From Actinobacteria bacterium HGW-Actinobacteria-1 (GTDB lineage Bacteria; Actinomycetota; Coriobacteriia; Anaerosomatales; Anaerosomataceae): DNA of 64,000 nt. This document shows positions 2,097 to 43,574 of this stretch, piece by piece (position 1 is the first letter of the stretch; every line of letters begins with the position of its first letter). The position numbers and the translations under genes were made by a program. The notes beneath the pieces were generated by a model. It searched no databases. It saw only the letters and a program-made list of their open reading frames with translations, and was not told the origin of the DNA. Location of the stretch: contig PHFB01000007.1 in NCBI GenBank assembly GCA_002841355.1, positions 1 through 64,000 on the forward strand, read 5' to 3'.

Positions 2097-2993
2097 GTGA
2101 CCGCTCGCGTCCGTGTCCCCGCAACATCCGCGAACCTCGGCCCGGGCTACGATGCGTTCGGGCTGGCGCTTGCCCTCTATGACGTCTTCGAGGCTGAGCC
2201 CGCCGAGAGGTGGACGGTGGAGATCACCGGCGAGGGCGAGGACGCTCTTCGCACCGACGAGGGCAACGAAGTCGTCAGGTCGATGCGCCACCTCTTCGAC
2301 ACGGTCGGCTACTCGGGCGCGGCCTCCGTACGCTGTGAGAACGGCATCCCGGTTGGGCGCGGGCTGGGCTCCTCGGCCGCGGCTATCGTCGGCGGTCTGC
2401 TGCTCGGCGATCTCATCGCAGGTTCGGAGCTTCCGCGCGAACGCATCTTCGAGCTTGCATCGGAGCTTGAGGGCCATCCCGACAACGTTGCCGCCGCCGT
2501 CTTCGGCGGCTTCACGGTGTGCTGGCAGGACGGGGCGCCACACGCCGCAAGGGTCGAACCGGGAGGTGGATTCGCGGCGGTCATCGCGCTGAGCGACACG
2601 GCGCTTTCCACCACCGAGGCACGCGACGCGTTGCCCGATACGGTTTCGCACGTAGATGCCGCGTTCACCGCGGGCAGGGCAGGGCTTCTCGCCGCCGGCA
2701 TCACGCTGGGTCGCAGTGACCTCGTCGCCGCGGGTCTCGTCGACCGCCTGCACGAACCCTTCCGCGAGCATCTCATGCCCGATATCGGCGCCACGCGTGA
2801 CGCGCTCGTCTCGGCAGGTGCAATTGGTGCGGTGCTCTCCGGCGCCGGACCAACCGTCCTCGGATTCGTGATGGCCGAGAGCGACGATGACGCACTGGAT
2901 GAGGCGCTGCGTGTTGCCACGCGTGTGGCGGAGCTTCGCGGTCGTCACGTGTTCGCGCTCGGCATCGACCGCGACGGCGCCACGATCCACTGA
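2097..2993 (+). CDS. thrB: Homoserine kinase
   Basis: 298 aa from GTG 2097. GHMP-family kinase phosphorylating homoserine for threonine synthesis. It starts with the typical VRVPATSANLGPGYDAFG segment and carries the ATP-binding motif GRGLGSSAAA at about residue 90; the C-terminal GAVLSGAGPTVLGF segment is also characteristic. The open frame extends further upstream inside hom, but homology begins at this GTG, and GAGGAG at the end of hom can act as ribosome site (12-nt spacing). Its stop overlaps a possible ATG of the next gene. Confidence 0.95.
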   Translation: MTARVRVPATSANLGPGYDAFGLALALYDVFEAEPAERWTVEITGEGEDALRTDEGNEVVRSMRHLFDTVGYSGAASVRCENGIPVGRGLGSSAAAIVGGLLLGDLIAGSELPRERIFELASELEGHPDNVAAAVFGGFTVCWQDGAPHAARVEPGGGFAAVIALSDTALSTTEARDALPDTVSHVDAAFTAGRAGLLAAGITLGRSDLVAAGLVDRLHEPFREHLMPDIGATRDALVSAGAIGAVLSGAGPTVLGFVMAESDDDALDEALRVATRVAELRGRHVFALGIDRDGATIH

Positions 2994-3010
2994 TGCCCGG
3001 GGGGAGCGAA

Positions 3011-4417
3011 GTGTCGGGAGCGATCGCACAGGAGCCGGGGCACGCGAAGCCGCCCGCGTGGCGAATCGTCGCGCTTGCGGCTGTCATGGTGCTCGCCTCC
3101 GTTGCTGCGGCGTACATCTCCTTCGCCGGGGTGCAGTGGCCTTCGGTCGAGGTGCTGTTCTCGGGCACAATCGCGGTCACGCTTGCTGCGGTGGCGCTTG
3201 CGAGCCCCCGCAACGGCCTGGTCTTGCTGCTGATGGCGATTCCACTATTCGACTTCGCGACGCTTGGTCCTCAGAACGCGCCGTTCACCGCTGCTCACGT
3301 GTTGCTCGGCGGGACGATCCTGGGCTGGCTTGCGCGGGTGGTTCGTGACCACAAGAGTGCGCTGCCGACGCCCACGCCGCTACTCGGCGGGTTGGGGCTG
3401 TTGGTGATCGCCGGACTTGGCTCGCTCATCGCGTCGCTTGCTCCGGCGACGACGGCGTTCAACACGTTCCGACTCCTTGCGCTCTTCCTGCTCGCCATGG
3501 TCGTGATGTGGCGTGCCTCCACACCCGAGGGGGCGTTTTCGCTCGTGCGCCTGCTGGTGTGGATCGCCGTTGCGCTCGTGGGAGTCGAGGGGGTGCAGTA
3601 CCTGATGCCGGGGCTCGGCATCGGCAGGATAGCGACACAGGGACTTGAGTCGACCGCGCTGCTCGTACGACCGGCAGCGTTCTTCCTGGATCCGAACTTC
3701 CTCGCAGGCTATCTGTCTGCGGCTGCGCTCGCGTGCGGCGCGATGCTCGTTCGCGCGCGCTCGTGGCATGAGGGGCTCGTGTGGGCCGTGCCGGGCGCGA
3801 TCACGGCCGCCGGCATGCTCGTGACGTTCTCCCGGACCGCCTGGGTCGGCTTCGCGGTCGGCATGGTGCTGGTGCTGCTCACCGCTCCTGCCGAGCGGCG
3901 CAAGAAGCTCGTCATCATCGCCGTGGTCCTTGCCGTCGCGGCGGTGCCGTTCCTGCCTGCGTCGATCACCGCCAGAGTCGCCACGATCTTCGAGCCGCAG
4001 TCGACGGGTTCGCTCTCCACACGCTACCTCATGGTCGTCTCGAGCGTGCAGATGCTCGGGCAGTACTGGCTCGGGGGCACCGGGCTTGGCGGGTTCGAGC
4101 TGGCGTATCCTCCGTACCGGCAACCTGGCTCGCTCGCGCGCATCCTGCACCCGCATCAGCTCTTCCTGGCGATGTGGGTCGAGATGGGGCTCCTCGGCCT
4201 GCTTGCCGAGTTGATGATCGTGGCAGGCATCGCGATCGCGTGGCGCCGCCTTCACGTGCGCGGGTATCCGGGAGTGAGCGCCGCCGTGCTCGTCGGTGCG
4301 GTCGCTTTGGTCGTGGAGTCGTTCTTCCAGTACTATCTGTACTTCGAGTACCTCTGGCTGTTCCTGGCGCTTCTGGCAGCCGTATCGGTCCATCGCAAGG
4401 AGGTCTCCGGTGCCTGA
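3011..4417 (+). CDS. O-antigen ligase / polymerase family membrane protein (copy 1)
   Basis: About 468 aa with a dozen or so hydrophobic segments and the Wzy/WaaL signature region: FSRTAWVGF around residue 275, then a large loop with RYLMVVSSVQML and GGTGLGGFELAYPPYRQPG. It probably polymerises or transfers lipid-linked glycans at the outer face of the membrane. GTG 3011 is preferred because a GGGGGAG ribosome site precedes it; an in-frame ATG at 2993 overlaps the thrB stop but has no ribosome site. It overlaps the next, Wzz-like gene by 8 nt. The C-terminal FFQYYLYFEYLWLF segment is nearly identical in protein and DNA to the copy at 44908-46293. Whether it is a ligase or polymerase cannot be told from sequence. 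Confidence 0.85.
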   Translation: MSGAIAQEPGHAKPPAWRIVALAAVMVLASVAAAYISFAGVQWPSVEVLFSGTIAVTLAAVALASPRNGLVLLLMAIPLFDFATLGPQNAPFTAAHVLLGGTILGWLARVVRDHKSALPTPTPLLGGLGLLVIAGLGSLIASLAPATTAFNTFRLLALFLLAMVVMWRASTPEGAFSLVRLLVWIAVALVGVEGVQYLMPGLGIGRIATQGLESTALLVRPAAFFLDPNFLAGYLSAAALACGAMLVRARSWHEGLVWAVPGAITAAGMLVTFSRTAWVGFAVGMVLVLLTAPAERRKKLVIIAVVLAVAAVPFLPASITARVATIFEPQSTGSLSTRYLMVVSSVQMLGQYWLGGTGLGGFELAYPPYRQPGSLARILHPHQLFLAMWVEMGLLGLLAELMIVAGIAIAWRRLHVRGYPGVSAAVLVGAVALVVESFFQYYLYFEYLWLFLALLAAVSVHRKEVSGA

Positions 4418-5180
4418 GAATGCCCATCCCACGTTCCTTGAGGCGGTTCGCCGGGAGTGGTGGATCCCCGTCGTCGTCATGGTGCTTGCTGGCGGCATCG
4501 CGCTTGGTGTCTCCTCGGCCAACCCCGAGCCGCTCTACGAGGGTCGAGCGGTCGTCATCATCGACGCGCCCACGCTCTCGAAGTTCCCCGATCTCCCCAA
4601 GCCCGACGCCATGATCCGCGAGGTCGCGAGCGCCGAGTTCTCCTCCGAGGTTGCAAGCCGCGCCGTCGTGCCGAGCGAGACCGTAGCCGCGGGACTGCAG
4701 GCTTCGACGCGCGACGATCCGCAGAGCCAGCTCATCCTCACGTTCACATCTTCCGATGAAGCGCTGGCAGCGAAGGTGGCCACCATCGCTGCCGGCTACG
4801 CCGCGGAACGTGCCGGTGTCATCGGCGGCAAGGAGATATGGGAGCTGCAGCGCCGTGTAAGCGAGACGCAGCGGGCGCTCAAAGAGGTGCTGAAGATCAA
4901 CTCCGAAGCCGGGCGCAACGCTGACGATGCATTCAAGCTGGCAGCGGCGGGCACGCAGTGGGAGATGCGCATGCGTCTGTACGAGGACACACTCGCGCTT
5001 CGCACCCTTCGCAACGCCTACTACTACAACGGCAACCTCAAGACGCCGGATATCTCACCGGTGCGTCGTCGGGGCGCTACCGTTGCCGGCGCCCTGGTCT
5101 TCGGGCTCGTTCTGGGGCTCGTGATCGCGGTCTTCCGGGAGGCGCTGCTCTCAAGGCCGCCCAAGCCACACGCGGCCTGA
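4410..5180 (+). CDS. Wzz-like chain-length / polysaccharide co-polymerase protein (copy 1)
   Basis: 256 aa from GTG 4410, with AAGGAGG 6 nt upstream. Two membrane segments flank an extracytoplasmic domain: TM1 at about residues 20-38 after an EWW motif, and TM2 at about 222-245 (ATVAGALVFGLVLGLVIAVF). The middle is alpha-helical with coiled-coil character, as in Wzz-type length regulators. There is no cytoplasmic tyrosine-kinase domain. Overlap with the preceding ligase-like gene implies coupled translation and a joint role in setting glycan chain length. A paralogous pair occurs at 44908-47029. Confidence 0.75.
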   Translation: MPENAHPTFLEAVRREWWIPVVVMVLAGGIALGVSSANPEPLYEGRAVVIIDAPTLSKFPDLPKPDAMIREVASAEFSSEVASRAVVPSETVAAGLQASTRDDPQSQLILTFTSSDEALAAKVATIAAGYAAERAGVIGGKEIWELQRRVSETQRALKEVLKINSEAGRNADDAFKLAAAGTQWEMRMRLYEDTLALRTLRNAYYYNGNLKTPDISPVRRRGATVAGALVFGLVLGLVIAVFREALLSRPPKPHAA

Positions 5181-5290: not shown

Positions 5291-6082
5291 GTGAGCGACG
5301 TCAAGCCTCTCGTCATCGCGCAGGTCTCGGATCTGCACTGCGGCTCGCAGTACCACATACCGAGTCTGGCCACGCGTGTCGTTGACGAGGTGAACGACCT
5401 CGACCCCGACGTGCTTGTCGTGACTGGCGACCTCACCGACATGGGTTTCCGCCAGGAGTTCAAGGCGGCCCGGGGCCTGATCTCGCGCATGGACGTCGAG
5501 CAGGTGATGGTGCTTCTCGGCAATCACGACGCACGCAACGTGGGGGACATGCACTTCGAAGAGCTCTTCGGCGCGCGCTCGACCGAGCTGCGGTTGCCCG
5601 GCGTGCGGATCCTCGGGCTCGACTCGTCGGAGCCGGACCTCGACGGTGGTCGCGTCGGGCGCGAGCGGTACCGTTGGATCGAGGAGCGCTTCTCGGATCC
5701 CGACGAGTTCAAGATCGTCTGCCTGCATCACCACCTCCTGCCAGTGCCCGGTACCGGCCGCGAGCGCAACATCGTCTTCGACGCCGGCGATCTGCTTCGC
5801 GTGCTCACCTCCAGCGGCTGCGACATGGTGTTGTGCGGCCACAAGCACGTCCCGCATGTGTGGCGCCTGGAGGGCATGGTCGTGGTGAACGCCGGAACGG
5901 CGTGCACGCACAGGCTCCGCGGCAACACGCAGGCGTCGTACAACATCATCGAGATCTATCCGGACCGTGTGCGTGTCGTGCTCAAGCACCCATTCGGGGA
6001 GCCGGAGCCGGTCGCGGACTTCGAACGCGTGCCGCGCCGCGAATGCGTCTGGCATCCTGCCTCGGGAGGTGACGCGAGATGA
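5291..6082 (+). CDS. Calcineurin-like metallophosphoesterase
   Basis: 263 aa from GTG 5291 (GGAGG 5 nt upstream). All metal-binding motifs of the family are present in order: DLH (residues 14-16), GDLTD, GNHD, the CLHHH block and GHKH. The overall layout resembles CpdA/Icc-type phosphodiesterases. Its stop overlaps the ATG of the cyclic 2,3-diphosphoglycerate synthetase gene by 4 nt, so the two are translationally coupled. The substrate is unknown; hydrolysis of a phosphoester connected with cyclic 2,3-diphosphoglycerate is a reasonable inference from context, not something the sequence shows. Confidence 0.88.
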   Translation: MSDVKPLVIAQVSDLHCGSQYHIPSLATRVVDEVNDLDPDVLVVTGDLTDMGFRQEFKAARGLISRMDVEQVMVLLGNHDARNVGDMHFEELFGARSTELRLPGVRILGLDSSEPDLDGGRVGRERYRWIEERFSDPDEFKIVCLHHHLLPVPGTGRERNIVFDAGDLLRVLTSSGCDMVLCGHKHVPHVWRLEGMVVVNAGTACTHRLRGNTQASYNIIEIYPDRVRVVLKHPFGEPEPVADFERVPRRECVWHPASGGDAR

Positions 6083-7419
6083 GCACCGTCGTTGCACTCA
6101 TCGACGGCGAGCATTACCCGCCGGTCGTGCGCGCGGCGCTCTGTGCGCTGGCGGCCGAGTTCGACATCGTCACGGCCGCTTTCATCGGCGGTACCGAGAA
6201 GGTGGACGCGTCGGATCCCGACATCTACGGCGTGCCGGTGATCTTCGCGTCCACGGCCGAGGAGGCGCTTCGCACCGCGATCGCCCGATACAGCCCGCAC
6301 GCGATCGTCGATCTCTCGGACGAGCCGGTCGTGAGCTCTGCCGAGCGATTCCGCCTCGCCTCGATAGCGCTCGGTGCAGGCGTGTCGTACCGCGGCGCCG
6401 ACTTCCTGTTCACACCGCCGTGTCCCAAGCTCGACCTACGCACGCCGACGCTTGCGATCGTCGGAACCGGCAAACGCGTAGGAAAGACCGGCTTCTCGGC
6501 GTATGTCGCCCGGCATCTCAAAGCCAAAGGCCAGCGTGTCGTGGTGCTTGCCATGGGCCGAGGCGGCCCTGCCGAGCCGGAACTGATCCGCGGCGACGAG
6601 ATCGAACTCTCCACCGAGGACCTGCTCGCGCTGGCGGCACTGGGCAAGCACGCATCCTCGGACAACTACGAGGATGCCGTGATGAGCCGCGTGGCAACGG
6701 TCGGCTGCAGGCGATGTGGCGGCGGCATGGCTGGCGACACGTTCTTCAGCAACGTGCCCGAGGGCGCACGGCTTGCCGATGGTCTCGGGATGGATCTCGT
6801 GATGCTCGAGGGCTCGGGCGCCGCGATTCCGCCGGTTGCCGCGGACGCCACCATCCTCGTGATAGGCGCAGGCCAGGGACCCGGTTATGTGCGGGACTAC
6901 TTTGGCCCCTTCCGGCTTGCGCGGGCCGATGCGGTCGTGCTCACCGGTGCCGAGGAGCCCGTCGCTTCCGCCGCCGAGGTGGAGGCGATGCTGGCGGCGA
7001 TCAGCGTCCAGCGCCCGGATCTTCCTGTGGCGACCGTGGGCTTCAGGCCTGCGCCGCTGCATCCGGTGTCCGGGAAGCGGGTCTTCTTTGCGACGACCGC
7101 GCCGGCCGCGCTCTTGCCCCGGCTTGTCCGGCATCTTGAGACCGAATACGGGTGCACTGTCGTCGCCGCCAGTCCGCATCTCTCGAACCGCGCGCTGCTG
7201 CGTGCGGATATCGACGCGGCGGCCGGAACGTTCGATGTGCTGCTGAGCGAACTGAAGGCAGCGGCTATCGATGTGGTCGCGGCCGCAGGCGTACAGGCTG
7301 GCGTGCCTACTGTGCTCTGCGACAACGTACCGGTGGCCCTCGGTGGAATACCCGTTGACGACCTTATCGACATGTCCGCAGACCTCGCGCTCAGGCGCGG
7401 GAGCCCGAGGAGTGATTGA
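6079..7419 (+). CDS. cpgS: Cyclic 2,3-diphosphoglycerate synthetase
   Basis: 446 aa, close to the length of the archaeal enzyme (about 460). It is predicted to form the intramolecular phosphoanhydride of 2,3-diphosphoglycerate using ATP. Shared family blocks include LIDGEHYPPV at the N-terminus, FIGGTEK, DLSDEPV, the P-loop GTGKRVGKT (about residues 131-139), AMGRGGPAEPELIRGD, GCRRCGGGMAG and LEGSGAAIPPV. These match my memory of the Methanothermus fervidus protein well. The gene is coupled to the phosphoesterase upstream (ATGA overlap) and to 2-phosphoglycerate kinase downstream (TGATG), exactly the two activities needed to make the cyclic compound from 2-phosphoglycerate. Confidence 0.88.
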   Translation: MSTVVALIDGEHYPPVVRAALCALAAEFDIVTAAFIGGTEKVDASDPDIYGVPVIFASTAEEALRTAIARYSPHAIVDLSDEPVVSSAERFRLASIALGAGVSYRGADFLFTPPCPKLDLRTPTLAIVGTGKRVGKTGFSAYVARHLKAKGQRVVVLAMGRGGPAEPELIRGDEIELSTEDLLALAALGKHASSDNYEDAVMSRVATVGCRRCGGGMAGDTFFSNVPEGARLADGLGMDLVMLEGSGAAIPPVAADATILVIGAGQGPGYVRDYFGPFRLARADAVVLTGAEEPVASAAEVEAMLAAISVQRPDLPVATVGFRPAPLHPVSGKRVFFATTAPAALLPRLVRHLETEYGCTVVAASPHLSNRALLRADIDAAAGTFDVLLSELKAAAIDVVAAAGVQAGVPTVLCDNVPVALGGIPVDDLIDMSADLALRRGSPRSD

Positions 7420-8369
7420 TGCCGACGACCAACCCTCCGATTCTCATCAAGGACGAGAAGCACGGACTCCCGTACAGCAAAGGCCTGATGGCGCAGTCGT
7501 TCACCGCGACCGGCTTGTCGCCAGCTCGCGCGTACCTCGCGGCGCAGCGCATCCAGGACGAGATGCGCGAGCGCGATCTGAGAGAGGTGTCGCTCGACGA
7601 GATCCAGTCGATGGCCGTTGCGGTTCTTGAGGAGCAGGCGGGCCCGGAATTCGCCCGGCGCTACATGAAGCTCCGGGAGCTCGCGAACCTCGATCGACCG
7701 CTCGTGATCCTCATCGGCGGCACCACCGGCGTCGGCAAATCCACCATCGCCACCGAGATAGCGCACCGGCTCGGAATCACACGCATTGTCTCTACCGATT
7801 CCATTCGAGAGGTGATGCGTGGTATCTTTACGCGGGACCTCATGCCAGCGATCTACGAAAGTTCGTTCAACGCGTGGCGCGGACTGAGGGTTCCCGTCCC
7901 CCACGGTGCGAATCCCGTCATCGTCGGCTTCCGCGAGCAGACCGCCGCCGTCATCACCGGCATCAGGTCGCTCATCGAGCGGGCATCGGTCGAAGGCGAG
8001 AGCCTCGTCATCGAGGGCGTTCACATGGTTCCGGGCTACATCGAGCCTTCCCAGTTCAAGAACGCGTCCGTCGTTCAGATGCTGGTGACGGTCGATGACG
8101 AGGAGGCCCACAGGAGCCACTTCTACATCAGGGAAGTCCAGACGGACGGTACGCGTCCGTTTGAGAAGTACCGGGCGAATTTCGGGAACATCAGGCTCCT
8201 CGGCAGGTACATCGAGGATCTGGCCGTCGAGCATGGCATCCCGATCGTCCACAGTCACCAACTCGACCGCACGGTCGCGGAGGTGCTCGAACTCGTCGTC
8301 AACGCGGCTATCCGCGGAGACGATCGGACAGCGTCGTTGCAGGCGAGCCCTGCGACGGAAGGAGAGTAG
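7419..8369 (+). CDS. pgk2: 2-phosphoglycerate kinase
   Basis: 316 aa from ATG 7419 (GAGGAG 6 nt upstream). It would phosphorylate 2-phosphoglycerate to 2,3-diphosphoglycerate, the substrate of the preceding gene's enzyme. The N-terminal ~95 residues (LPYSKGLMAQSF, SPARAYLAAQRIQ) form an ATP-cone-like segment typical of this family; the kinase part has P-loop GGTTGVGKST at about residue 102 and STDSIREVMR. Archaeal homologues accompany the cyclic 2,3-diphosphoglycerate pathway. The upstream in-frame TTG at 7416 is less likely as start. Confidence 0.88.
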   Translation: MPTTNPPILIKDEKHGLPYSKGLMAQSFTATGLSPARAYLAAQRIQDEMRERDLREVSLDEIQSMAVAVLEEQAGPEFARRYMKLRELANLDRPLVILIGGTTGVGKSTIATEIAHRLGITRIVSTDSIREVMRGIFTRDLMPAIYESSFNAWRGLRVPVPHGANPVIVGFREQTAAVITGIRSLIERASVEGESLVIEGVHMVPGYIEPSQFKNASVVQMLVTVDDEEAHRSHFYIREVQTDGTRPFEKYRANFGNIRLLGRYIEDLAVEHGIPIVHSHQLDRTVAEVLELVVNAAIRGDDRTASLQASPATEGE

Positions 8370-8375
8370 CCGCAC

Positions 8376-9038
8376 ATGAAGTTCTTCCTGGATACCGCGA
8401 ACATCGCCGAGATCGAAGAGGCAGCAAGCTGGGGCGTGCTTGCAGGCGTCACCACCAACCCCACGCTCTATGCTCGTGAGGGCGGCAAGCTCGCCGATTT
8501 CCACGGTCACCTCAAGCGCATCTGCGACATCGTTGACGGACCCGTCAGTGGCGAGACCGTGGGCCTCAAGCGGGACGAGATCGTGCGCGAAGGCCTCGAG
8601 CTTGCCGAGATCGCTCCCAACCTCGTCGTGAAGGTCCCGACGATGCCGGAAGGCCTCGCCGCCACCAAGGCACTCTTCGACAAGGGCATCAAGGTCAATA
8701 TGACGCTCTGCTTCACGGTCCCGCAGGCGATTCTCGCGGCACGCTCCGGCGCCGCATACGTCTCGCCGTTCGTCGGTCGTTTCGATGACATCTCGGAGGA
8801 CGGCATCGATCAGCTCGAGCAGGTCGTCGTCGCCCTGAGCAACTACGACTTCGGCCACCAGGTCGAGGTCATCGCCGCTTCCATCCGCAGCGCGAACCAC
8901 GTGACGAAGGCAGCACTCATGGGTGCCGATATCGCCACCGTGCCGTTCAACGTGCTGGAGAAGCTGGTGAAGCATCCGTTGACTGATAGGGGCCTGGAGT
9001 CCTTCCTGGCCGACTGGGAGAAAGTGAAGAACGCATGA
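8376..9038 (+). CDS. tal: Transaldolase / fructose-6-phosphate aldolase-like (TalC/FSA type)
   Basis: 220 aa, the short TalC/MipB subfamily. The N-terminal MKFFLDTANIAEI block, GVTTNPTL, the Schiff-base lysine in LVVKVPTMPEG (about residue 85) and SPFVGRFDDI are all present. It transfers or cleaves dihydroxyacetone units in sugar phosphate metabolism; sequence alone does not separate transaldolase from aldolase. GGAGAG precedes the ATG and the gene overlaps rho by 4 nt. Confidence 0.93.
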   Translation: MKFFLDTANIAEIEEAASWGVLAGVTTNPTLYAREGGKLADFHGHLKRICDIVDGPVSGETVGLKRDEIVREGLELAEIAPNLVVKVPTMPEGLAATKALFDKGIKVNMTLCFTVPQAILAARSGAAYVSPFVGRFDDISEDGIDQLEQVVVALSNYDFGHQVEVIAASIRSANHVTKAALMGADIATVPFNVLEKLVKHPLTDRGLESFLADWEKVKNA

Positions 9039-10384
9039 GTGCTCGTCCACGCAAGCGCGGCCGCCGCGGCGGTGCCCCGCAGTCCGAGGTAGCACCCTCG
9101 ATCACGCGGGAGGAACTCGCCGGCAAGACCGTGCCGGAGCTGCGGCAGATGGCTGCCGAGATCGATCTCGACGTCAAAGCCTTGAAGAAGAAGGATGAGA
9201 TCGTCGAGGCCGTCTACGAAGCCAAGGTCAAGGCCGAGGGATTCATTGACATCGTCGGCATTCTCGATGTCCTGCCCGAGGGATATGGCTTCATCCGCAC
9301 TGCCGGATACCTGCCGGGCGACCACGACGTCTACTGCTCGATGTCGCAGGTTCGCCGTTTCGAACTCCGGCGTGGCGACCTCATCAAGGGCCAGGTACGT
9401 CCCCCTAAGGAGTCCGAGAAGTACCCGGCGCTCCTCAAGGTGAGCGCTATCAACGGTCTTGAGCCCGAGGCCGCGAAGCAGCGCAAGAACTTCAAGGACC
9501 TCACGCCTGTGTACCCGGACGACCGTCTTCGTCTGGAGCATGGTCCGCAGTTCATGACCGTTCGCGTGATCGACCTCGTGGCGCCGATCGGCAAGGGCCA
9601 GCGCGGCCTGATCGTCTCCCCGCCGAAGGCAGGCAAGACGACCGTTCTCAAGGACATCGCCGCCGCCATCACGGCGAACAACCCCGAGGTCTACCTCATG
9701 TGCCTCCTTGTGGACGAGCGTCCCGAGGAAGTCACGGACATGGAGCGGTCGATCCACGGAGAGGTCGTCTCCTCGACGTTCGACATGCCCTCCGAGAACC
9801 ACATCGCCGTCGCCGAGCTCGTGATGGAGCGCGCGAAGCGCCTTGTCGAGAGCGGCTACGACGTCGTGATCCTGCTCGACTCGATCACGCGGCTCGCTCG
9901 CGCGTACAACCTCGCCACGCCGGCCTCCGGCCGCATCCTCTCCGGTGGTGTCGACTCGACGGCGCTCTATCCGCCGAAGAAGTTCTTCGGCGCGGCGCGC
10001 AACATCGAGCACGGCGGCTCGCTCACGATCCTCGCGACCGCGCTCGTGGATACCGGCTCCAAGATGGACGAGGTCATCTTCGAGGAGTTCAAGGGCACCG
10101 GCAACATGGAGCTCCGTCTCGACCGTGGCATGGCCGATCGCCGGATCTTCCCGGCTATCGACGTCGTCACCTCGGGCACCCGTAAAGAGGAGCTCATCCT
10201 CGACCCGATGGAAGCGCCGTTCGTGTGGGGCCTCCGCAGGATTCTGCATGGCGTCGACTCCGCGGAGCGCGCGCTCGACATGCTCATCAAGGGACTCAAG
10301 CAGACGCAGTCAAACACCGAGTTCCTCACCAAGATGGCCCGCAAGGCCGAGGACAAGCGCAATACGAACGGGATCGACCTGTAA
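9035..10384 (+). CDS. rho: Transcription termination factor Rho
   Basis: 449 aa hexameric RNA helicase that ends transcription. Residues ~22-60 form the Rho_N domain (LAGKTVPELRQMAAEI), ~67-140 the cold-shock-like RNA-binding domain (GFIDIVGILDVLPEGYGFIR), then the ATPase with Walker A PPKAGKTT (~residue 195) and Walker B VVILLDSITRLARAYN. A short basic, RRG-rich N-terminus replaces the long insert of many actinobacterial Rho proteins. ATG 9035 overlaps the aldolase stop. Confidence 0.97.
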   Translation: MSARPRKRGRRGGAPQSEVAPSITREELAGKTVPELRQMAAEIDLDVKALKKKDEIVEAVYEAKVKAEGFIDIVGILDVLPEGYGFIRTAGYLPGDHDVYCSMSQVRRFELRRGDLIKGQVRPPKESEKYPALLKVSAINGLEPEAAKQRKNFKDLTPVYPDDRLRLEHGPQFMTVRVIDLVAPIGKGQRGLIVSPPKAGKTTVLKDIAAAITANNPEVYLMCLLVDERPEEVTDMERSIHGEVVSSTFDMPSENHIAVAELVMERAKRLVESGYDVVILLDSITRLARAYNLATPASGRILSGGVDSTALYPPKKFFGAARNIEHGGSLTILATALVDTGSKMDEVIFEEFKGTGNMELRLDRGMADRRIFPAIDVVTSGTRKEELILDPMEAPFVWGLRRILHGVDSAERALDMLIKGLKQTQSNTEFLTKMARKAEDKRNTNGIDL

Positions 10385-28697: not shown

Positions 28698-29927
28698 GTG
28701 TCGGCTGCCACCATCGACGAACACGGCCGCGCACGTTTCGGCGGCGTGATCTTCGCCAAGCTGTTCCCCAACGACGACGAGCCGTTCCGCGGCATCTTCG
28801 TGGCCGAGCAGCTGCGGGCAACGTCGGATCGCGTCGACTGGTCGGTCATCGCTCCGGTGCCCTGGGTGCCGAAGTGGGTGGCGCGCGCGCTTCACAAACC
28901 TTACGCGAGCGGCGAGCGCATCATCGACGGTTCGCTCGTCATGTGGCCCCGCTATCCTGTGCTGCCGAAACGTTGGCTGTACGCGACGGTGGCGCCGCTC
29001 ATCGCGCTCACTGCCCGCGGAGCGTTCAAGCGTGCATGCGCCCGCACGAACGCCTCCTTCGTGCACGTGCACGACTTGTATCCGAGCGGGGCAGCCGGCA
29101 GACGCCTGTGCGACGCCGCCAGTTTGCCGTACGTGCTCACCGTCCATGGCCTCGACCTCTACTCGAACCTGGAGAATCCTCGCTGGCGGCGGGAGATCCT
29201 CGCTGCCGGTCGCGGCGCCCGCGCGGTCATCTGCGTCGGCGAGCGCCTTGCGACTGACGTCACAGCCGAGCTTGGCCTGGATCCCTCGCTCGTGACGGTC
29301 ATCCCGAACACCTACGACGTCCGCCGCTACACGCATGTCGAGCGCGCGCGTGGCCCGGTGCTGCGCATCTTGAGCGTCGGTCGCCTGTCGCATGAGAAGG
29401 GCCATGACGTGCTCCTGCGAGCATTCGCGCAGGTGCGCGTCGCAGGCGTCGAGGCGACGCTCACGATGGTGGGCGACGGCCCCGAGCGAACCGCGCTGGA
29501 GGCGCTTGCGAGCGACCTCGGCATCGCTGACGCCGTGGAGTTCAAGGGCATCCTACTCGACGAACCCCTCGCCGCCGAGATGCGCGGGGCCGACCTCTTC
29601 GTGCTTCCCTCGCGATCCGAGGGCTTCGGTGTGGTGCTCATCGAGGCGCTGGCGACCGGGCTTCCCGTTGTCGCGACGCGCTCCGGCGGCCCCGACGGCA
29701 TCGTGGCCGATGGTGACGGTGTGCTTGTGGCAGCTGACGACGTAGACGCGTTCGTCGCCGGGCTTCACGACGCCATTGCGCGGCTCGACAGCTTCGACAG
29801 CACGGACATTGCGGCTCGTGCGGCGGCGCGGTACTCGCCGAGCGCCGTAGGCGGCATGCTCGTCTCAGTGTACGAGGCTGTTCTTGCCGGTGCTCCCATA
29901 CCGAATTCGATCGGAGCGCGCCGATGA
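28698..29927 (+). CDS. GT4-type glycosyltransferase
   Basis: 409 aa from GTG 28698. Two Rossmann halves: an acceptor-side N-terminal half with HVHDLYPSGAAGRRLC and VLTVHGLDLYSN, and a donor-side half with SVGRLSHEKGHDVLLRAF and the EX7E motif in SRSEGFGVVLIEALATGLPVV. It transfers a sugar from an activated donor; the specific sugar is unknown. It opens the glycan locus and overlaps the next gene by 4 nt. Confidence 0.88.
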   Translation: MSAATIDEHGRARFGGVIFAKLFPNDDEPFRGIFVAEQLRATSDRVDWSVIAPVPWVPKWVARALHKPYASGERIIDGSLVMWPRYPVLPKRWLYATVAPLIALTARGAFKRACARTNASFVHVHDLYPSGAAGRRLCDAASLPYVLTVHGLDLYSNLENPRWRREILAAGRGARAVICVGERLATDVTAELGLDPSLVTVIPNTYDVRRYTHVERARGPVLRILSVGRLSHEKGHDVLLRAFAQVRVAGVEATLTMVGDGPERTALEALASDLGIADAVEFKGILLDEPLAAEMRGADLFVLPSRSEGFGVVLIEALATGLPVVATRSGGPDGIVADGDGVLVAADDVDAFVAGLHDAIARLDSFDSTDIAARAAARYSPSAVGGMLVSVYEAVLAGAPIPNSIGARR

Positions 29928-31084
29928 GCCCGCGACATCTCGTCGTCATGATCGTGAGCGCGTCTGGTACTGCGGACCCGCGCGTCGCCAAGGAAGCCGA
30001 GGCGCTCGTCGGCGGCGGCTACGAGGTCGTCGTCCTGGCGTGGGACCGCGAGAAGCGAGATCCGGCGGTCATAGAGCGCAACGGCTGGCGAATCGAGAGC
30101 ATGGGGCCCGAGGCGCGCCACGGCGCCGGGCTCCGCAACATCGCCGGCTATCGCGAGTTCTGGCGTGTTGCGCGCGAGCGCGCAGCCCAGCTGCGACCAG
30201 ACGTGCTGCACTGCGCCAACCTCGACACGGTGCCCGCCGCGTTGCCGCTCGTTACCCGTTCGGCGAGTGCCCCGAAGCTCGTGCTCGACTTCTGGGAGAT
30301 GTACCGCCACAGCCGGGCGCTGCCGCAGCGCGGCATCAAGGGCGTGGTCGCCCGTGCCGCCGCACGGTATCTCGAGCGTCGCTGTATCCCGCGCGCCGAC
30401 GTCGTCATCACCGTTGGCGAGGGCCAGGTGGGCTACTACGAGGCGCTTGGCGCGAAGAACATCGTGCTCGTCGAGAATGCGCCCGAACTCGAACGGTACA
30501 CGCCGGTCGAGCGCAACGAACCAGAGTTCGTGGTGAGCTTCATCGGCCAGAAGCGCTGGGTTCCCGCGCTCGTCAACCTCATGGAGGCCATTCAGCCGCA
30601 TCCGGAGCTTCGCGCGCTGCTCATCGGTGGCGGTACAGCCGAGGAAGAGATCGCGCGTATCGCAGCGACGATGGAGCGCGTCGAGACGCGCGGACGGTTC
30701 GAGCCCGCGCAAGGTCCCGCGCTCTACCACGAGTGCGATGCCGTCTTCGCATGCTACGATTCGTCGCTCGAGAACTGGCGGACCGCCTATCCCGTAAAGG
30801 CGATGGAAGCGATGGCGTGCGCGTTGCCGCTCATCTGCACGCGGGGGACGTTCAGCGGCGAGTACGTTGAACGGCATGGCCTGGGCTACGCGGTGGACGA
30901 TCACGACCCGAAGGACATCGCACGGGCGCTCGTCGCGCTCGCCGCAGATCGCGAGGCCGCACGCGCGATGGGCCGTCGCGGGCGGGCGATAGTGGAGGCC
31001 GGACTCAACTGGTCCGGAGCGTCGGCGCGGTTGCTGACAGCGTACGATGCGCTGTTCCGGCCCGAAGGCATTCCGGTACAATAA
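29924..31084 (+). CDS. Glycosyltransferase (GT4-like)
   Basis: 386 aa. N-terminal SASGTADPRVAKEAEALVGGGYEVVVLAWDR is the start typical of GT4 family members that act on bacterial surface glycans; YPVKAMEAMACALPLICT near residue 290 corresponds to the donor-binding EX7E region. ATG overlaps the preceding stop (ATGA). The acceptor is unknown. Confidence 0.85.
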   Translation: MSPRHLVVMIVSASGTADPRVAKEAEALVGGGYEVVVLAWDREKRDPAVIERNGWRIESMGPEARHGAGLRNIAGYREFWRVARERAAQLRPDVLHCANLDTVPAALPLVTRSASAPKLVLDFWEMYRHSRALPQRGIKGVVARAAARYLERRCIPRADVVITVGEGQVGYYEALGAKNIVLVENAPELERYTPVERNEPEFVVSFIGQKRWVPALVNLMEAIQPHPELRALLIGGGTAEEEIARIAATMERVETRGRFEPAQGPALYHECDAVFACYDSSLENWRTAYPVKAMEAMACALPLICTRGTFSGEYVERHGLGYAVDDHDPKDIARALVALAADREAARAMGRRGRAIVEAGLNWSGASARLLTAYDALFRPEGIPVQ

Positions 31085-31152
31085 GAAGATTCGCGACCAG
31101 GCAGGATTGCCTCGGCGTGACGCAACATGTCGACTCTGGGAGAGAAGAGCAG

Positions 31153-32448
31153 ATGGGACTCAAAGAACGGATCGAGAGCGGGGAAGCCGTCTTCGGCGTG
31201 GTCGGTCTCGGATATGTCGGACTGCCGCTTGCAGTAGAGATGGCGAAGTCCGGTCACAAGGTCATCGGGCTCGAAGTCTCGGAAGGCAAGACCACCGAGG
31301 TCAACGCGGGCAGAAGCTACATCCCCGACGTGCCCACCGATGAGCTCGCGGAGCTCGTCTCGGCCGGTCTCATCGAGGCCACAACCGACTTCTCTCGCGT
31401 GGCCGAGACCGACGCGGTCGTCATCTGCGTCCCGACGCCGCTCAACAAGATGAAGGAGCCGGACACCTCGTTCATGGAGTCCGCTGCAGCCGCCGTTGCG
31501 CCATACCTGCATCCCGATATGCTCGTCACGCTCGAGTCGACCACGTATCCCGGAACCACCGAGGAGATCGTGCAGCCGATCCTCGAGGCGAACGGCCTCA
31601 AGGTCGGGACGAACCTGTACCTCGCGTTCTCACCGGAGCGCGTCGACCCCGGTAACCCGGTCTTCCAGACCCGCAACACCCCGAAAGTCGTCGGTGGCGT
31701 CACGCACGACTGCACCGAGATCGCAGTTGCTATGTACGCGCGCTTCATCGACACCGTGGTGCCGGTCTCCTCGACCCGCGCCGCCGAGATGACGAAGCTC
31801 CTCGAGAACATCTTCCGTTGCGTGAACATCGCGCTCATGAACGAGTTGCTCCAAGTGTGCGAGCGCATGGGCATCAACATCTGGGAAGTCGTCGACGCTG
31901 CCAAGACCAAGCCGTTCGGCTTCATGCCGTTCTATCCCGGTCCGGGCCTCGGCGGTCACTGTATCCCGATCGACCCGTTCTACCTCTCGTGGAAGGCGCG
32001 TGAGTTCGACCTGCACACCGAGTTCATCGAGCTCGCCGGCAAGGTCAACGAGAACATGCCGTACTACGTCGTCACGCGTCTCATGGAGGCGCTCAACACG
32101 CAGCGCAAGTCGCTCGCGGGATCGAAGATCCTGCTCCTCGGTGTCGCGTACAAGAACGACATCGACGACATGCGCGAGTCTCCCGCCATCAAGATCGCCG
32201 AGCTCCTCGCCGAGAAGGAAGCGCAGCTCGTCTACCACGACCCGTACGTGCCGAAGTTCAGCTTCGACGGGCAGACGCTTGAAAGCGTCGCGCTCACAGA
32301 AGCCGAGCTTGCCTCGGCAGATGCGGTGCTCGTCGTGACCGATCACCGCAACGTCGACTACCACCTGGTCGTTCGAGCATCGCGGCTGATCGTCGATACG
32401 CGCAACGCGCTCAAGGCATTCGACGACAACAAGGTGGTGCGCCTGTGA
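31153..32448 (+). CDS. wbpA: UDP-N-acetyl-D-glucosamine 6-dehydrogenase (WbpA-like)
   Basis: 431 aa from ATG 31153. It oxidises C6 of a UDP-N-acetylhexosamine to the uronic acid with NAD. The NAD motif GVVGLGYVGLPLAVEMAKSG lies at ~residues 14-33 and the catalytic Cys in GPGLGGHCIPIDPFYLSW at ~residue 270. Text in this clade (KNDIDDMRESPA) and the three following genes point to WbpA rather than WecC. The product would be UDP-GlcNAcA. It overlaps the next gene by 4 nt. Confidence 0.88.
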   Translation: MGLKERIESGEAVFGVVGLGYVGLPLAVEMAKSGHKVIGLEVSEGKTTEVNAGRSYIPDVPTDELAELVSAGLIEATTDFSRVAETDAVVICVPTPLNKMKEPDTSFMESAAAAVAPYLHPDMLVTLESTTYPGTTEEIVQPILEANGLKVGTNLYLAFSPERVDPGNPVFQTRNTPKVVGGVTHDCTEIAVAMYARFIDTVVPVSSTRAAEMTKLLENIFRCVNIALMNELLQVCERMGINIWEVVDAAKTKPFGFMPFYPGPGLGGHCIPIDPFYLSWKAREFDLHTEFIELAGKVNENMPYYVVTRLMEALNTQRKSLAGSKILLLGVAYKNDIDDMRESPAIKIAELLAEKEAQLVYHDPYVPKFSFDGQTLESVALTEAELASADAVLVVTDHRNVDYHLVVRASRLIVDTRNALKAFDDNKVVRL

Positions 32449-33473
32449 CCGGCAAGCCCGTTCGCGTCGGAGCCGTCGGCTTCGGCTACTGGGGTCCCAA
32501 CCTCGTCCGCAACGTCGACAAGGCGGGGGATGCGCAGCTCGTCGCCGCGTGCGATCTGTCCGAGGCGAATCTCGCGAAGCTCAAGGGCCTGTACCCGCAC
32601 GTCGAGACGACCACCGACCTCGACGCCTTCCTTGCCGACTACGACCTCGACGCCGTTGTGGTAGCCACAAGCGCGCCCAGCCACTTCGCGATCGCGAGCA
32701 AGGTCATAGCGGCGGGCAAGCACTGCTTCGTCGAGAAGCCGCTCACGCTCAAGAGCGAGGATTCTGCAGCGCTCGTGCGCGCAGCAGACGCCGCCGGCGT
32801 GGTGCTCATGGTGGGACACCTCATGGAGTACCACTCGGCGATCAACTGGATCAAGGACTACGTCGCATCGGGTGAGCTCGGTGACGTGCTCTACCTGTAC
32901 ATGCAGCGACTCAACCTCGGCAAGGTCCGCACCGAGGAGAACGCCTTCTGGTCGCTCGCGCCGCACGATGTGTCGATCGCCCTCTACGTCCTCGGCGAGA
33001 CGCCGGATTACGTGAGCGCGAACGGTGCCGCGTACGTGACGCCGGGAGTGCACGATACGGTCTTCGCGAACCTGCACTTCCCGAGTGGCAAGATGGCGAA
33101 CATCCATGTGAGCTGGCTCGACCCGCATAAGGTCCGCAAGCTCACGATCGTCGGCACGAAGAAGATGCTCGTGTTCGACGACATGGAAGCCACCGAGAAG
33201 CTGTGGATCTACGACCGCGGTGTTGGTGCCCCCGAGAACGCCATGGCGTACGGCGAGGACCTCACGCTCCGCTTCGGCGACATCACCGTTCCGTGGGTTC
33301 CGCTCAAGGAGCCACTCGCACTCGAGGTGCAGCACTTCCTCGACTGCTGTGCCACCGGCGCGACGCCTCGCAGCGATGGCCGAGACGGGCTGAACGTCGT
33401 CCGCGTTCTCGAGGCTGTTGACGTTTCCATGGCCGCAGGCGGATCACCCGCGGCGATCGCACAGGAGGTCTGA
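32445..33473 (+). CDS. wbpB: Gfo/Idh/MocA oxidoreductase, UDP-GlcNAcA 3-dehydrogenase (WbpB-like)
   Basis: 342 aa from GTG 32445. NAD-binding GFGYWGPNLVRN at the N-terminus and the active-site EKPLTLKSEDSAALV motif (~residue 100) define the family. Between wbpA- and wbpD-like genes its expected job is oxidation of C3 of UDP-GlcNAcA to the 3-keto sugar, which the aminotransferase then aminates. GHLMEYHSAI is also typical of WbpB/WlbA. Confidence 0.85.
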   Translation: MTGKPVRVGAVGFGYWGPNLVRNVDKAGDAQLVAACDLSEANLAKLKGLYPHVETTTDLDAFLADYDLDAVVVATSAPSHFAIASKVIAAGKHCFVEKPLTLKSEDSAALVRAADAAGVVLMVGHLMEYHSAINWIKDYVASGELGDVLYLYMQRLNLGKVRTEENAFWSLAPHDVSIALYVLGETPDYVSANGAAYVTPGVHDTVFANLHFPSGKMANIHVSWLDPHKVRKLTIVGTKKMLVFDDMEATEKLWIYDRGVGAPENAMAYGEDLTLRFGDITVPWVPLKEPLALEVQHFLDCCATGATPRSDGRDGLNVVRVLEAVDVSMAAGGSPAAIAQEV

Positions 33474-33474
33474 G

Positions 33475-34215
33475 ATGAGTGCATACGTACACCCTTCGGC
33501 GAAGGTAGGCGCGAACTTCGCGCCGGCGCCGTTCTGCATCATCGATGAGGATGTCGTCATCGGCGACAACGTCACCGTCGGCTCGTTCGTGCGCATCTGC
33601 GCGGGCGCGGTTCTCGGTGATGACGTGACCGTTGCCGACGGCGCCATCGTCGGCAAGCGTCCGAAGCTCGCCAAGGGCTCGACAGCCAAGGGCGGCGTGC
33701 TTCCCGGCGTGGTGCTCGGTCGCGGCTGCGCCGTGGGGAGCAACGCCGTCGTTATGGCTGGTTCGACGTTCGGCGTGGAGTGCATCATCGCCGACGGCGC
33801 CGGCGTTCGCGAGCGCTGCACCATCGGCGACAACGTCGTTGTCGGCCGCAACGTGACCGTGGAGAATGACACGTCGATCGGCAGCCGCACACGCATCCAG
33901 TCCGGCGCGTACGTCACGGCATACGTGACCATCGAAGAGGATGTCTTCATCGCGCCGATGGTCGTGACCACCAACGACAACTACATGGGCCGCACCGAGA
34001 AGCGCCTCACCGAGATGCGCGGGTGCACGATCCGTCGAGGCGCGCGCGTGGGTGGCGGAGCGCACATTCTTCCCGGGATCGAGATCGGCGAGGACGCGTT
34101 TGTCGCAACCGCCGCTGTTGTCACCCGCAACGTCCCGGCGCGCACGCTCGTCATGGGCACGCCTGCGAAGCCCGTGAAGGACGTCCCGGAAGAAGAACTG
34201 CTGGAGAACCAGTAA
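33475..34215 (+). CDS. wbpD: UDP-3-amino sugar N-acetyltransferase (WbpD-like, left-handed beta helix)
   Basis: 246 aa from ATG 33475 (AGGAGG upstream). At least seven turns of hexapeptide repeat (VVIGDNV, CTIGDNVVVGRN, DTSIGSRT, GARVGGGAHILPGIEIGEDAFVA style). It would acetylate the 3-amino group of UDP-2-acetamido-3-amino-glucuronic acid with acetyl-CoA. Family and neighbours support WbpD; a wrapped C-terminus (TPAKPVKDVP) is typical. Confidence 0.85.
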   Translation: MSAYVHPSAKVGANFAPAPFCIIDEDVVIGDNVTVGSFVRICAGAVLGDDVTVADGAIVGKRPKLAKGSTAKGGVLPGVVLGRGCAVGSNAVVMAGSTFGVECIIADGAGVRERCTIGDNVVVGRNVTVENDTSIGSRTRIQSGAYVTAYVTIEEDVFIAPMVVTTNDNYMGRTEKRLTEMRGCTIRRGARVGGGAHILPGIEIGEDAFVATAAVVTRNVPARTLVMGTPAKPVKDVPEEELLENQ

Positions 34216-34229
34216 CGGCAACGTGACGG

Positions 34230-34250
34230 CAGTCCCATCACGTGGGACTG
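34230..34250 (+). terminator. Hairpin between wbpD- and wbpE-like genes
   Basis: CAGTCCCA and TGGGACTG form an 8-bp stem with a 5-nt loop; GGGCC follows, not U residues. It may attenuate or protect the mRNA rather than terminate. Confidence 0.35.
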
Positions 34251-34311
34251 GGCCGCCGCTGAATGCGAAGATGTGTCGAATCAACGACGAGACGATGAGG
34301 AGCTGGACTCC

Positions 34312-35418
34312 ATGGGCGTACCCCTTCTTGACCTGAAGGCCCAGTACCGTGATCTGCAGGACGAGCTCGACGCGGCCATTAACGACGTCATGGCCAACGC
34401 CGCGTTCATCGGCGGGCCGAAGGTGGCCGCGCTTGAGCAGGCGATCGCCGACTACTGTGGCACGAAGTACGCGGTCGCATGCGGCAACGGCACGGATGCC
34501 CTGTTCCTGATCCTTGCGGCAATGGGCATCGGCAAGGGCGACGAGGTCATCACGACACCGTTCACGTTCTTCGCAACGGTTGAGGCGATCGTCCACCTTG
34601 GCGCCAAGCCCGTCTTCGTCGACATCGAGCCCGGTACGTACAACATGGATGTCACCGCCCTTGAGGCCGCGATCACCGATCGCACCAAGGCGATCATGCC
34701 GGTCCACATCTTCGGTCAGTGCGTGGACATGGACGTCGTCAACGAGATCGCCGGCCGTCACGGCCTCAAGGTCATCGAAGACGCCTGCCAGGCAATCGGC
34801 GCCACCTACAAGGGTCGCATGGCGGGTTCGCTTGCCGATGCCGCCGCCTTCTCGTTCTTCCCGAGCAAGAACCTCGGCTGCGCCGGTGATGGCGGCATCG
34901 TCACCACCGACGACAAGGAGATCGCGGACGCGTGCCGCAAGCTTGCGAACCACGGCTCCAGCCGCAAGTACTACCACGACGCGTTTGGCGTGAACTCGCG
35001 TCTCGACTCGCTCCAGGCTGCGATCCTCCTTGTGAAGCTGCCGCATCTGGACACGTGGAACGCACAGCGCCGCGCGGCCGCCGAGGTCTATGGCGAGCTC
35101 CTGGCCGGCGTGGACGGCATCGAACTCCCCGTCGTTCGCGACTATGGCGTCCCGGTCTACCACCTCTACATCGTCAAGTCCGAGCGTGCCGAGAAGGTCA
35201 TGGCCGCGCTGCAAGAGGCTGGTATCGGTACCGCTCTGTACTATCCGCTCGCACTGCACGAGCAGGAGTGTTTCGAATCCGTCGACGGCTTCGTGAAGCC
35301 GTCGCTGCCGGAAGTCGAGTCGTGTGACGCGCGCACGTTCGCGTTGCCGTGCTTCCCCGGCATCACGCGCTCGCAGCAGGATGAGATCGTCCGGGTCGTC
35401 AAGGATGCGCTCGCCTGA
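34312..35418 (+). CDS. wbpE: DegT/DnrJ/EryC1 aminotransferase (WbpE-like)
   Basis: 368 aa from ATG 34312 with GAGGAG 9 nt upstream. PLP enzyme putting an amino group on C3 of the keto-sugar. GNGTDALFLIL, HIFGQCVDMD, EDACQAIGATYKG and the PLP lysine in FSFFPSKNLGCAGDGG (~residue 185) are standard for the family. With the three genes before it, it completes the four-step route to UDP-2,3-diacetamido-2,3-dideoxy-glucuronic acid. No WbpI epimerase is seen. Confidence 0.88.
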   Translation: MGVPLLDLKAQYRDLQDELDAAINDVMANAAFIGGPKVAALEQAIADYCGTKYAVACGNGTDALFLILAAMGIGKGDEVITTPFTFFATVEAIVHLGAKPVFVDIEPGTYNMDVTALEAAITDRTKAIMPVHIFGQCVDMDVVNEIAGRHGLKVIEDACQAIGATYKGRMAGSLADAAAFSFFPSKNLGCAGDGGIVTTDDKEIADACRKLANHGSSRKYYHDAFGVNSRLDSLQAAILLVKLPHLDTWNAQRRAAAEVYGELLAGVDGIELPVVRDYGVPVYHLYIVKSERAEKVMAALQEAGIGTALYYPLALHEQECFESVDGFVKPSLPEVESCDARTFALPCFPGITRSQQDEIVRVVKDALA

Positions 35419-35444
35419 TCGAGCAGTGTCAACGAGGAAGTGAT

Positions 35445-36839
35445 ATGGGAAAGCACTACGCACCGCGCTCCCGCTCTCGTTCGCGGGTAGCTCCACGGGG
35501 CCGCACGTCGAGCGTGGGTCGAATCGTCGAACCGTCGCCTCGTCTGCGGGCACATAAGCAGAACCGCAACCGCGCGATCAAGCGCGCGGTGCTCGTCGCC
35601 GTCATCGCGGTGGCGCTCCTCGTGGTCGGTGTGGCAGCGTATGCCTTCTTCACCGTTCGAAGCATCGACAAGACGATCAAGGCGGGCGTGGGCTCAAACA
35701 GCCAGACCGTCGCCGCTCTCACGAAGCCGGTACCGAAGCAGCCCTTCACGATCCTCCTCATGGGAAGCGACGCGCGGCCCAAGGAAGAGGCCGCGCGAGC
35801 GGATACGATTATCGTCGCCAGGGTCGACCCGCAGACCAAGCAGGTCGCGATGCTCTCGATTCCCAGAGACACGCGGGTCGAGATCCCCGGTCATGGAATC
35901 AGCAAGATCAACGCGGCTAACTTCTATGGTGGCGCAGAGGGCGGTCCCGCACTCATGATCAAGACCGTCGAGGGGTTCCTCGGCATCAAGATCAATCACT
36001 ACATGGAAGTGAACTTCGTCGGCTTCCAGAAGGCTGTTGACGCGCTTGGTGGCGTTTGGATCGACGTCGACACCACGATCGACGACCCCAAGGCCGCCAG
36101 TCACAGCCCGCATCTGCGGGCCCAGCATATCGACAAGGGGTATCAGCTGCTCACTGGCGAGTACGCGCTCACGTACGTGCGCAGCCGGGCGTTCCCGGAT
36201 GCCGACTTCACCCGCATGAAGCACCAGCAGACATTCTTCAAGGCCCTTGCCGAGCAGTCCTCGCGCATCGAGAACCTGCCTAAGCTGCCCGCAATCGCAC
36301 GTGAAGTCGCCAACTACACCGCGACTGATATGAGCGTCGGCGAGATGATCGACATCATCATGGCGATCAAGGGCATCAAGGCCACCGACCTGCAGACTGC
36401 CACGATCACCGGAACATGGAAGTCGCCGTACGTCTGGACGGACGAGGAGGAGAAGGCGCGTCTTGTCGCCGCCTTCACCGCCGGACGAGCCTTCGACGCC
36501 ACGTCCACCGCCGATGTGCCGCTCGTGCCTTCGACCATCTCGATCACCGTGCGCAACGGTGCAGGCGAGGAGGGCGTGGCATCGTCTGCGTCGTCTATCC
36601 TCAGGGCCGCCGGGTTCACGATCGGCGAGGTGGGCAACGCGAACCAGTTCGTTTACGACAAGACGCTCGTCGTCTATAAAGACGACGCGAACAAGGCCGC
36701 AGCGGATCTGGTGGCTTCGAAGTTGCCTACAGGCAATGTCGTCGCGAGCCGCGGGATGTACGAATTCACATCAGACGTGCTCGTCGTCGTGGGCAAGGAC
36801 TGGAAGGCCGCTGTCGCCGGGACTAGTTCGACGCAGTAG
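35445..36839 (+). CDS. LytR-CpsA-Psr family protein with LytR_C domain
   Basis: 464 aa. Basic Arg/Ser-rich cytoplasmic N-terminus, one membrane helix (about residues 46-68), then the LCP catalytic domain: LLMGSDAR, RADTIIVARVDPQ, IPRDTRVEIPG, INAANFYGG and TYVRSR-type active-site segment (YALTYVRSRAFPDADFTRMKHQQ). The C-terminal ~100 residues (ITVRNGAGEEGVASS onward) are a LytR_C domain. LCP proteins move undecaprenyl-linked glycans to peptidoglycan. Its stop codon touches the stop of the convergent gene. Confidence 0.92.
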   Translation: MGKHYAPRSRSRSRVAPRGRTSSVGRIVEPSPRLRAHKQNRNRAIKRAVLVAVIAVALLVVGVAAYAFFTVRSIDKTIKAGVGSNSQTVAALTKPVPKQPFTILLMGSDARPKEEAARADTIIVARVDPQTKQVAMLSIPRDTRVEIPGHGISKINAANFYGGAEGGPALMIKTVEGFLGIKINHYMEVNFVGFQKAVDALGGVWIDVDTTIDDPKAASHSPHLRAQHIDKGYQLLTGEYALTYVRSRAFPDADFTRMKHQQTFFKALAEQSSRIENLPKLPAIAREVANYTATDMSVGEMIDIIMAIKGIKATDLQTATITGTWKSPYVWTDEEEKARLVAAFTAGRAFDATSTADVPLVPSTISITVRNGAGEEGVASSASSILRAAGFTIGEVGNANQFVYDKTLVVYKDDANKAAADLVASKLPTGNVVASRGMYEFTSDVLVVVGKDWKAAVAGTSSTQ

Positions 36840-38060: not shown

Positions 38061-38070
38061 GAGACCTCCG

Positions 38071-39387: not shown

Positions 39388-39541
39388 GACCGCTACCTCC
39401 AGAAGTCGGGGCGCGCACAAGAAGCGCCGAGGCAAAGGGTACCATACGACGCCCCCGTTAACCGGTGCGGCAGACGTGCGTCACCCTCCGGTTGACTCGG
39501 TCGGATTGCGTGCCCTGAGCTGCTGCTGCTAAGGTCGCCCT

Positions 39542-43378: not shown

Positions 43379-43560
43379 CCGTTCTCCCGCAAGGCGGGTG
43401 AGGTGCGTGTTTCCCCAGTCACGCCATGATAGCCGAGGTGCTGCTAGCGGTGGAGCGACCGCGCAGGTACGCTAGCGCGTTTCGCTGACTCGGGCAAGCG
43501 TTCGTGCGATTCAGTTGACGGTCGGTTGTCGGGGGAGCGTGCGCGTCCGGTACCTGCGGC

Positions 43561-43566: not shown

Positions 43567-43574
43567 ATGCACCT

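Follow-up and report, generated by a model that had tools for sequence, protein, structure and literature searches.

The window analysed here, a stretch of 64,000 nucleotides (GenBank PHFB01000007.1, positions 1-64,000, forward strand), carries three consecutive genes for a calcineurin-type metallophosphoesterase (MPE), a cyclic 2,3-diphosphoglycerate synthetase (cPGS, also called cDPGS) and a 2-phosphoglycerate kinase-type protein (2PGK). We read this locus, with a probability of about 0.62, as a turnover module for cyclic 2,3-diphosphoglycerate (cDPG) that much of the Actinomycetota carries as a native trait and in which 2PGK and cPGS would make the compound and MPE would break it down. In the proposed pathway 2PGK would convert 2-phosphoglycerate and ATP to 2,3-diphosphoglycerate (2,3-DPG), cPGS would close the internal phosphoanhydride with a second ATP, yielding cDPG, ADP and phosphate, and MPE, which we assign to a distinct subfamily of two-metal phosphoesterases, would convert cDPG back to 2,3-DPG or dephosphorylate 2,3-DPG, so that carbon and phosphate re-enter lower glycolysis/gluconeogenesis. 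Judged from the encoded proteins, the making half (2PGK and cPGS) is close to certain and the breaking half, hydrolysis of cDPG or 2,3-DPG by MPE, is strongly suggested; the reactions in the organism of the window, the substrate of MPE and the physiological role are what we infer. The main value of the locus is that it offers a directly testable candidate for the missing cDPG breakdown enzyme. Its genes and motifs, with their right-hand neighbours, are:

5291..6082, forward strand: MPE, calcineurin-type metallophosphoesterase, 263 residues, soluble-looking (PF00149, 65.6 bits)
5750..5770, forward strand: GTGRERN motif of MPE, with the GRER core at residues 156-159 (alignment of cPGS-linked MPEs with Rv0805 and GpdQ)
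6079..7419, forward strand: cPGS, 446 residues (6e-123 to 8ORU/8ORK; ligand residues; model against 8ORU)
6463..6489, forward strand: Walker A/P-loop GTGKRVGKT of cPGS, with K132 and R133 for substrate and K136 and T137 for ATP/Mg (alignment, 8ORU numbering)
7419..8369, forward strand: 2PGK-type protein, ATP-cone and P-loop kinase, 316 residues (NF008994, 325.7 bits; NF003259, 309.3 bits)
7716..7742, forward strand: Walker A GGTTGVGKS of 2PGK, conserved in the 2PGK alignment
8376..9038, forward strand: fsa, fructose-6-phosphate aldolase/transaldolase-type (TIGR00875, 264.6 bits, above the cut-off of 245.95)
9035..10384, forward strand: gene that we take, from its sequence, to be rho-type (conserved order; junction read)

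The three open reading frames lie where an earlier note on this DNA had placed a translationally coupled phosphoesterase, synthetase and kinase, and they overlap one another. MPE starts at GTG 5291 with GGAGG in front and ends at 6082, where its stop overlaps the start of cPGS (ATGA); the stop of cPGS and the start of 2PGK have one base in common within TGATG. With fsa beginning 6 bp past 2PGK and overlapping the rho-type gene, again as ATGA, there is no real gap in the string, and the gene order MPE-cPGS-2PGK-fsa-rho is found again in related bacteria. A promoter scan gave no sigma-70-type promoter for the operon; the sole terminator-like site sits within cPGS, is not above chance expectation and was rejected as the operon terminator.

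On sequence and predicted fold, the identity of cPGS is secure. Residues 4-423 match the crystallised Methanothermus fervidus enzyme (8ORU/8ORK) with an E value of 6e-123, a second solved cPGS (9SXB) is matched at 2e-100 and the cPGS profile at 5e-186; searches of Pfam and NCBIfam returned no model matching the 446-residue protein. An AlphaFold model (pLDDT 86) matches 8ORU over its whole length (E 2e-49, TM 0.82) and contains both the unique N-terminal domain and the P-loop domain. In the M. fervidus enzyme 2,3-DPG is bound by E45, K145 and R146, Mg by T150 and D208 and ATP by E305, T353 and E404, with K149 and K406 shielding charge (PMC10690619). The counterparts in the window, taken from alignments in the same order, are E40, K132, R133, T137, D195, E292, T340, E391, K136 and K393, and K41 corresponds to a further residue of the ligand set, K46; P335 of that paper aligns to phenylalanine in this count and was dropped from the comparison. 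In a 12-member alignment of bacterial and archaeal proteins the ligand residues are invariant except for E292, which is nearly so. The homology search that had been set in advance as decisive for the claim that 6079-7419 encodes cPGS thus bore the claim out and placed the protein in no other P-loop family, the next fold matches (LpxK, HypB and UreG) being far weaker (LpxK TM ≤0.43). The window protein is therefore like the M. fervidus enzyme in near full-length homology, fold and residues for substrate, Mg and ATP, and differs from it in lying on a bacterial branch, in a non-methanogen host and in a string with MPE and fsa-rho, its activity being predicted. We also observed that, over the stretch compared, 9SXB does not differ from a protein of the Thermococci phylum (L121), so that a cPGS structure from outside the methanogens seems to exist.

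The third protein matches the 2-phosphoglycerate kinase models PRK12337 and PRK04220 of NCBIfam (4e-97 and 3e-92) over nearly its full length (residues 8-302 of 316 covering model positions 6-297 of 306), and its ATP-cone scores 27.3 bits in Pfam, above the cut-off of 25.8. It shares this near full-length match and the layout of ATP-cone and P-loop kinase with methanogen 2PGK (PRK04220) and its relatives (PRK12337), which agrees with the kinase partner proposed in the earlier note, and the 2PGK gene of Thermococci overlaps cPGS as it does in the window. In contrast to methanogen 2PGK, it lies below both curated cut-offs, and its identity to the tested 2PGKs of Methanopyri and Thermococci is 37-38%. 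We therefore call the protein 2PGK-like by family and, because of its pairing with cPGS, 2PGK by predicted function.

The association of the three genes extends far beyond the window. Of 296 genomes sampled evenly from its phylum, 163 (111 of 199 genera) have cPGS, 163 have 2PGK and 162 have the MPE family. Of the genomes with cPGS, 160 of 163 also have 2PGK and 159 of 163 also have MPE; only three have 2PGK without cPGS, nearly all cPGS-negative genomes lack both partners and close to 130 of the 296 lack all three genes. Fisher tests of co-occurrence give p <1e-74, a value to be read with the relatedness of the genomes in mind, since the trials are not independent. Positions were listed for 150 genomes: in 125 of them the gene immediately before cPGS is MPE, with a median distance of 95 bp from one matched region to the other, and in 119 the gene immediately after cPGS is 2PGK. 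A locus scan of bacterial and archaeal genomes, covering 80 loci, placed MPE upstream of cPGS in 72 and 2PGK downstream in 68, two of the 2PGK-negative loci running into a contig end. Nine Rubrobacter loci have no 2PGK in the slot after cPGS; in the one locus examined (L073:2938-3975) the slot holds a glpX-type fructose-bisphosphatase, which suggests a link to gluconeogenesis. Loss of 2PGK from Rubrobacter was considered and rejected, the gene being found elsewhere in both genomes checked. Within the class of the window, none of cPGS, 2PGK and MPE was found in the 20 listed genomes outside the window's own family; although the sampled genomes there lack the module, all of it is present in L048, whose record bears the title Slackia heliotrinireducens and a name derived from a mine and is probably a metagenome bin under a wrong label. 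In one bacterial family the only MPE homologue left is a weaker one, away from the cPGS locus.

The only characterised members of the cassette are archaeal, which would favour a recent gene transfer from an archaeon, and the earlier note had presented the locus as an archaeal cassette oddly placed in one bacterium. That description fell, with the module in over half of the sampled genomes of the phylum. In the cPGS tree the bacterial and archaeal proteins form the two sides of one branch (support 98), one old split, and in the MPE tree the bacterial proteins all lie on one side of a branch (support 99), the root of this tree being unsure because of long outgroup branches. The locus is fixed beside fsa-rho, and many lineages share its chromosomal neighbours. 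On the cPGS tree and the conserved neighbourhood we reject a recent archaeal transfer as extremely improbable; the bacterial cPGS locus is not an oddity, and it was not acquired recently from outside.

The link between cPGS and MPE recurs in archaea. We use Thermococci phylum for the phylum of a Theionarchaea locus, most of whose genomes we took for Thermococci from operon content and 9SXB. Here cPGS is present in 91 of 115 genomes and an MPE homologue (1e-43 or better) in 98, of which 89 also have cPGS; in 73 of these 89 the two lie within 3.5 kb of each other, against a chance expectation of ~0.007 per genome. The loci read out have either the order cPGS-2PGK-CBS-MPE, with MPE as a 500-residue tandem protein, or MPE nearby on the opposite strand. 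The CBS-domain-like protein between 2PGK and MPE (L130, L131, L134) could regulate cDPG turnover by sensing nucleotides. Each of the five Methanopyri-type genomes has cPGS together with one clear MPE relative, a single-domain protein, which is not adjacent to cPGS in the one locus examined.

MPE belongs to the Pfam family PF00149 (Metallophos; cut-off 21.5 bits, 1e-17) and keeps the metal-ligand residues D14, H16, D47, N78, H146, H184 and H186. Across 72 bacterial and 15 archaeal cPGS-linked MPEs, which we aligned with Rv0805 and GpdQ, the metal-ligand motifs are conserved throughout, and to them are added a block HHHLxPxPxxGRERN, R210 and a stretch GNHDxRNxG. GRER occurs in nearly all of these proteins, its first arginine being 93% conserved in archaea, where a Theionarchaea protein has T. 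Several of the conserved arginines would suit a substrate that, like cDPG, is small and highly anionic.

By both sequence and fold the nearest solved relatives of MPE are Rv0805, a class III cyclic nucleotide phosphodiesterase, and GpdQ, which head the fold search and have the metallophosphoesterase fold and metal-ligand motifs in common with it. This kinship, with the CBS-domain protein that places regulators in archaeal operons, would favour a reading in which 2PGK and cPGS make cDPG and MPE regulates the pathway by acting on something else, such as a cyclic nucleotide or dinucleotide or a nucleotide by-product. Identity is only 23-24% to Rv0805 and 20% to GpdQ, however, and MPE reaches no NCBI phosphodiesterase cut-off: its bit scores against curated cut-offs are 37.1/225 for CpdA, 37.2/400 for SpdA, 41.2/56.25 for YfcE and 65.7/420 for the DS9 anti-phage family, and an anti-phage role was rejected on the last value (66 bits), taken as superfamily likeness only. 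Moreover, Rv0805 and GpdQ retain the metal ligands but have neither the GRER block nor the HHHLxP pattern that marks the MPE subfamily linked to cPGS, and the near-perfect co-occurrence of cPGS and MPE in two domains of life suggests a pathway-specific substrate. We consider action on another substrate unlikely.

Somewhat less unlikely is that MPE dephosphorylates linear 2,3-DPG (or 2PG/3PG) while cPGS working in reverse, or some other enzyme, opens cDPG, a sub-case of the break step in our favoured scheme. The M. fervidus synthetase is reported to be reversible (PMC1224877), metallophosphoesterases are commonly phosphomonoesterases and the fold matches of MPE include purple acid phosphatases; against this, such an activity would drain the cPGS substrate unless controlled. 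The sequence gives nothing to separate dephosphorylation of linear 2,3-DPG from hydrolysis of cDPG by MPE. The earlier suggestion of a phosphoesterase acting in the cDPG pathway has gained, through co-occurrence, gene order and GRER, a far better foundation than gene coupling alone, with cDPG and 2,3-DPG as candidate substrates.

Several observations weigh against a make-and-break module for cDPG. The 2PGK of the window falls under its curated equivalog cut-offs (NF003259, 309.3 vs 343; NF008994, 325.7 vs 603). MPE does not adjoin cPGS in 25 of 150 bacterial genomes, and the MPE threshold of the phylum survey also lets in a second, weaker clade. One lineage has a peptidase in the MPE slot; an S49 peptidase (SppA-type) was seen in this position in L017, L018 and L063 (by Pfam) and in L057 (by eye). 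Nine Thermococci-phylum genomes (G309-G312, G325-G327, G331 and G416) have an MPE relative without cPGS, that of G310 (L124) retaining the GRERN motif. The cDPG hydrolase of Methanothermobacter thermautotrophicus, the expected breakdown step of the pathway and the one proposed for MPE, is known as a membrane-bound or extract activity (PMC1224877), whereas MPE has no obvious membrane segment (highest 19-residue mean hydropathy 0.91), peripheral binding being possible. Finally, in the openly searchable literature we found no measurement of cDPG, or of cDPG-enzyme activity, in a bacterium.

2,3-DPG is the cofactor of the phosphoglycerate mutase dPGM, and the module could accordingly be read as one in which 2PGK mainly provides this cofactor and cPGS is incidental. 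The occurrence of 2PGK without cPGS in Thermus/Deinococcus (2PGK: PMC1274311), and of 2PGK in mesophilic methanogens (PMC2686161), would agree with such a use. In profile scores, however, dPGM was over the cut-off in none of 15 genomes and the cofactor-independent apgM was over it in G000, so that 2,3-DPG is seemingly not needed as mutase cofactor, and in the phylum sample 2PGK is almost never found without cPGS. We have largely rejected this explanation and regard it as very improbable. In some genomes apgM adjoins the module; we did not use this as evidence because apgM in bacteria is found beside threonine genes and may be related to homoserine kinase.

As to the role of the compound, cDPG has been described as exclusive to hyperthermophilic methanogens, in which it increases with growth temperature and reaches about 1 M in M. 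kandleri (Methanopyri), a function as phosphate/energy store having also been proposed (PMC10690619). The cPGS gene was lost during the evolution of ammonia-oxidising archaea (PMC7554672). The spread of the module over many families of the phylum suggests that its function is not confined to hyperthermophiles and leads us to favour, with low confidence, a reserve or general protectant in bacteria; a phosphate and energy reserve, or a protectant at moderate levels, would be likelier than a specifically thermophilic solute. cDPG hydrolase activity in M. thermautotrophicus was described by Sastry 1992 and van Alebeek 1994, as cited in PMC1224877, and in the openly searchable literature we found no gene named for it. 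We propose only tentatively, as a possibility short of even odds, that MPE is this long-sought hydrolase, conserved from Methanopyri and Thermococci to Actinomycetota, and that cDPG is a widespread prokaryotic phosphate/energy reserve, many mesophilic bacteria included, rather than a thermoprotectant of hyperthermophilic methanogens only.

The gene families are already known; what is new is how widely they occur in bacteria, how tightly the three genes go together and the link to MPE across two domains. We found no discussion of bacterial cPGS or of a pathway phosphoesterase in the openly searchable literature, subscription papers and database annotations lying outside that search, and bacterial cPGS may well be automatically annotated in some database. 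If the function read from the operon's sequence is right, cDPG is also a product of a large fraction of one bacterial phylum, mesophilic and subsurface bacteria have a phosphate store so far unrecognised, the breakdown activity of 1992-1994 gains a concrete candidate gene in MPE, and new enzymes become available for making a compound of industrial interest.

Elsewhere in the window, O-antigen-ligase-like and Wzz-like genes lie upstream of the module (2993-5180), a linkage kept in near relatives only. A large glycan biosynthesis cluster at 28698-46293, named by eye from open reading frames, contains glycosyltransferases, UDP-sugar dehydrogenases, flippase-like and LytR-like genes and a second ligase-like gene.

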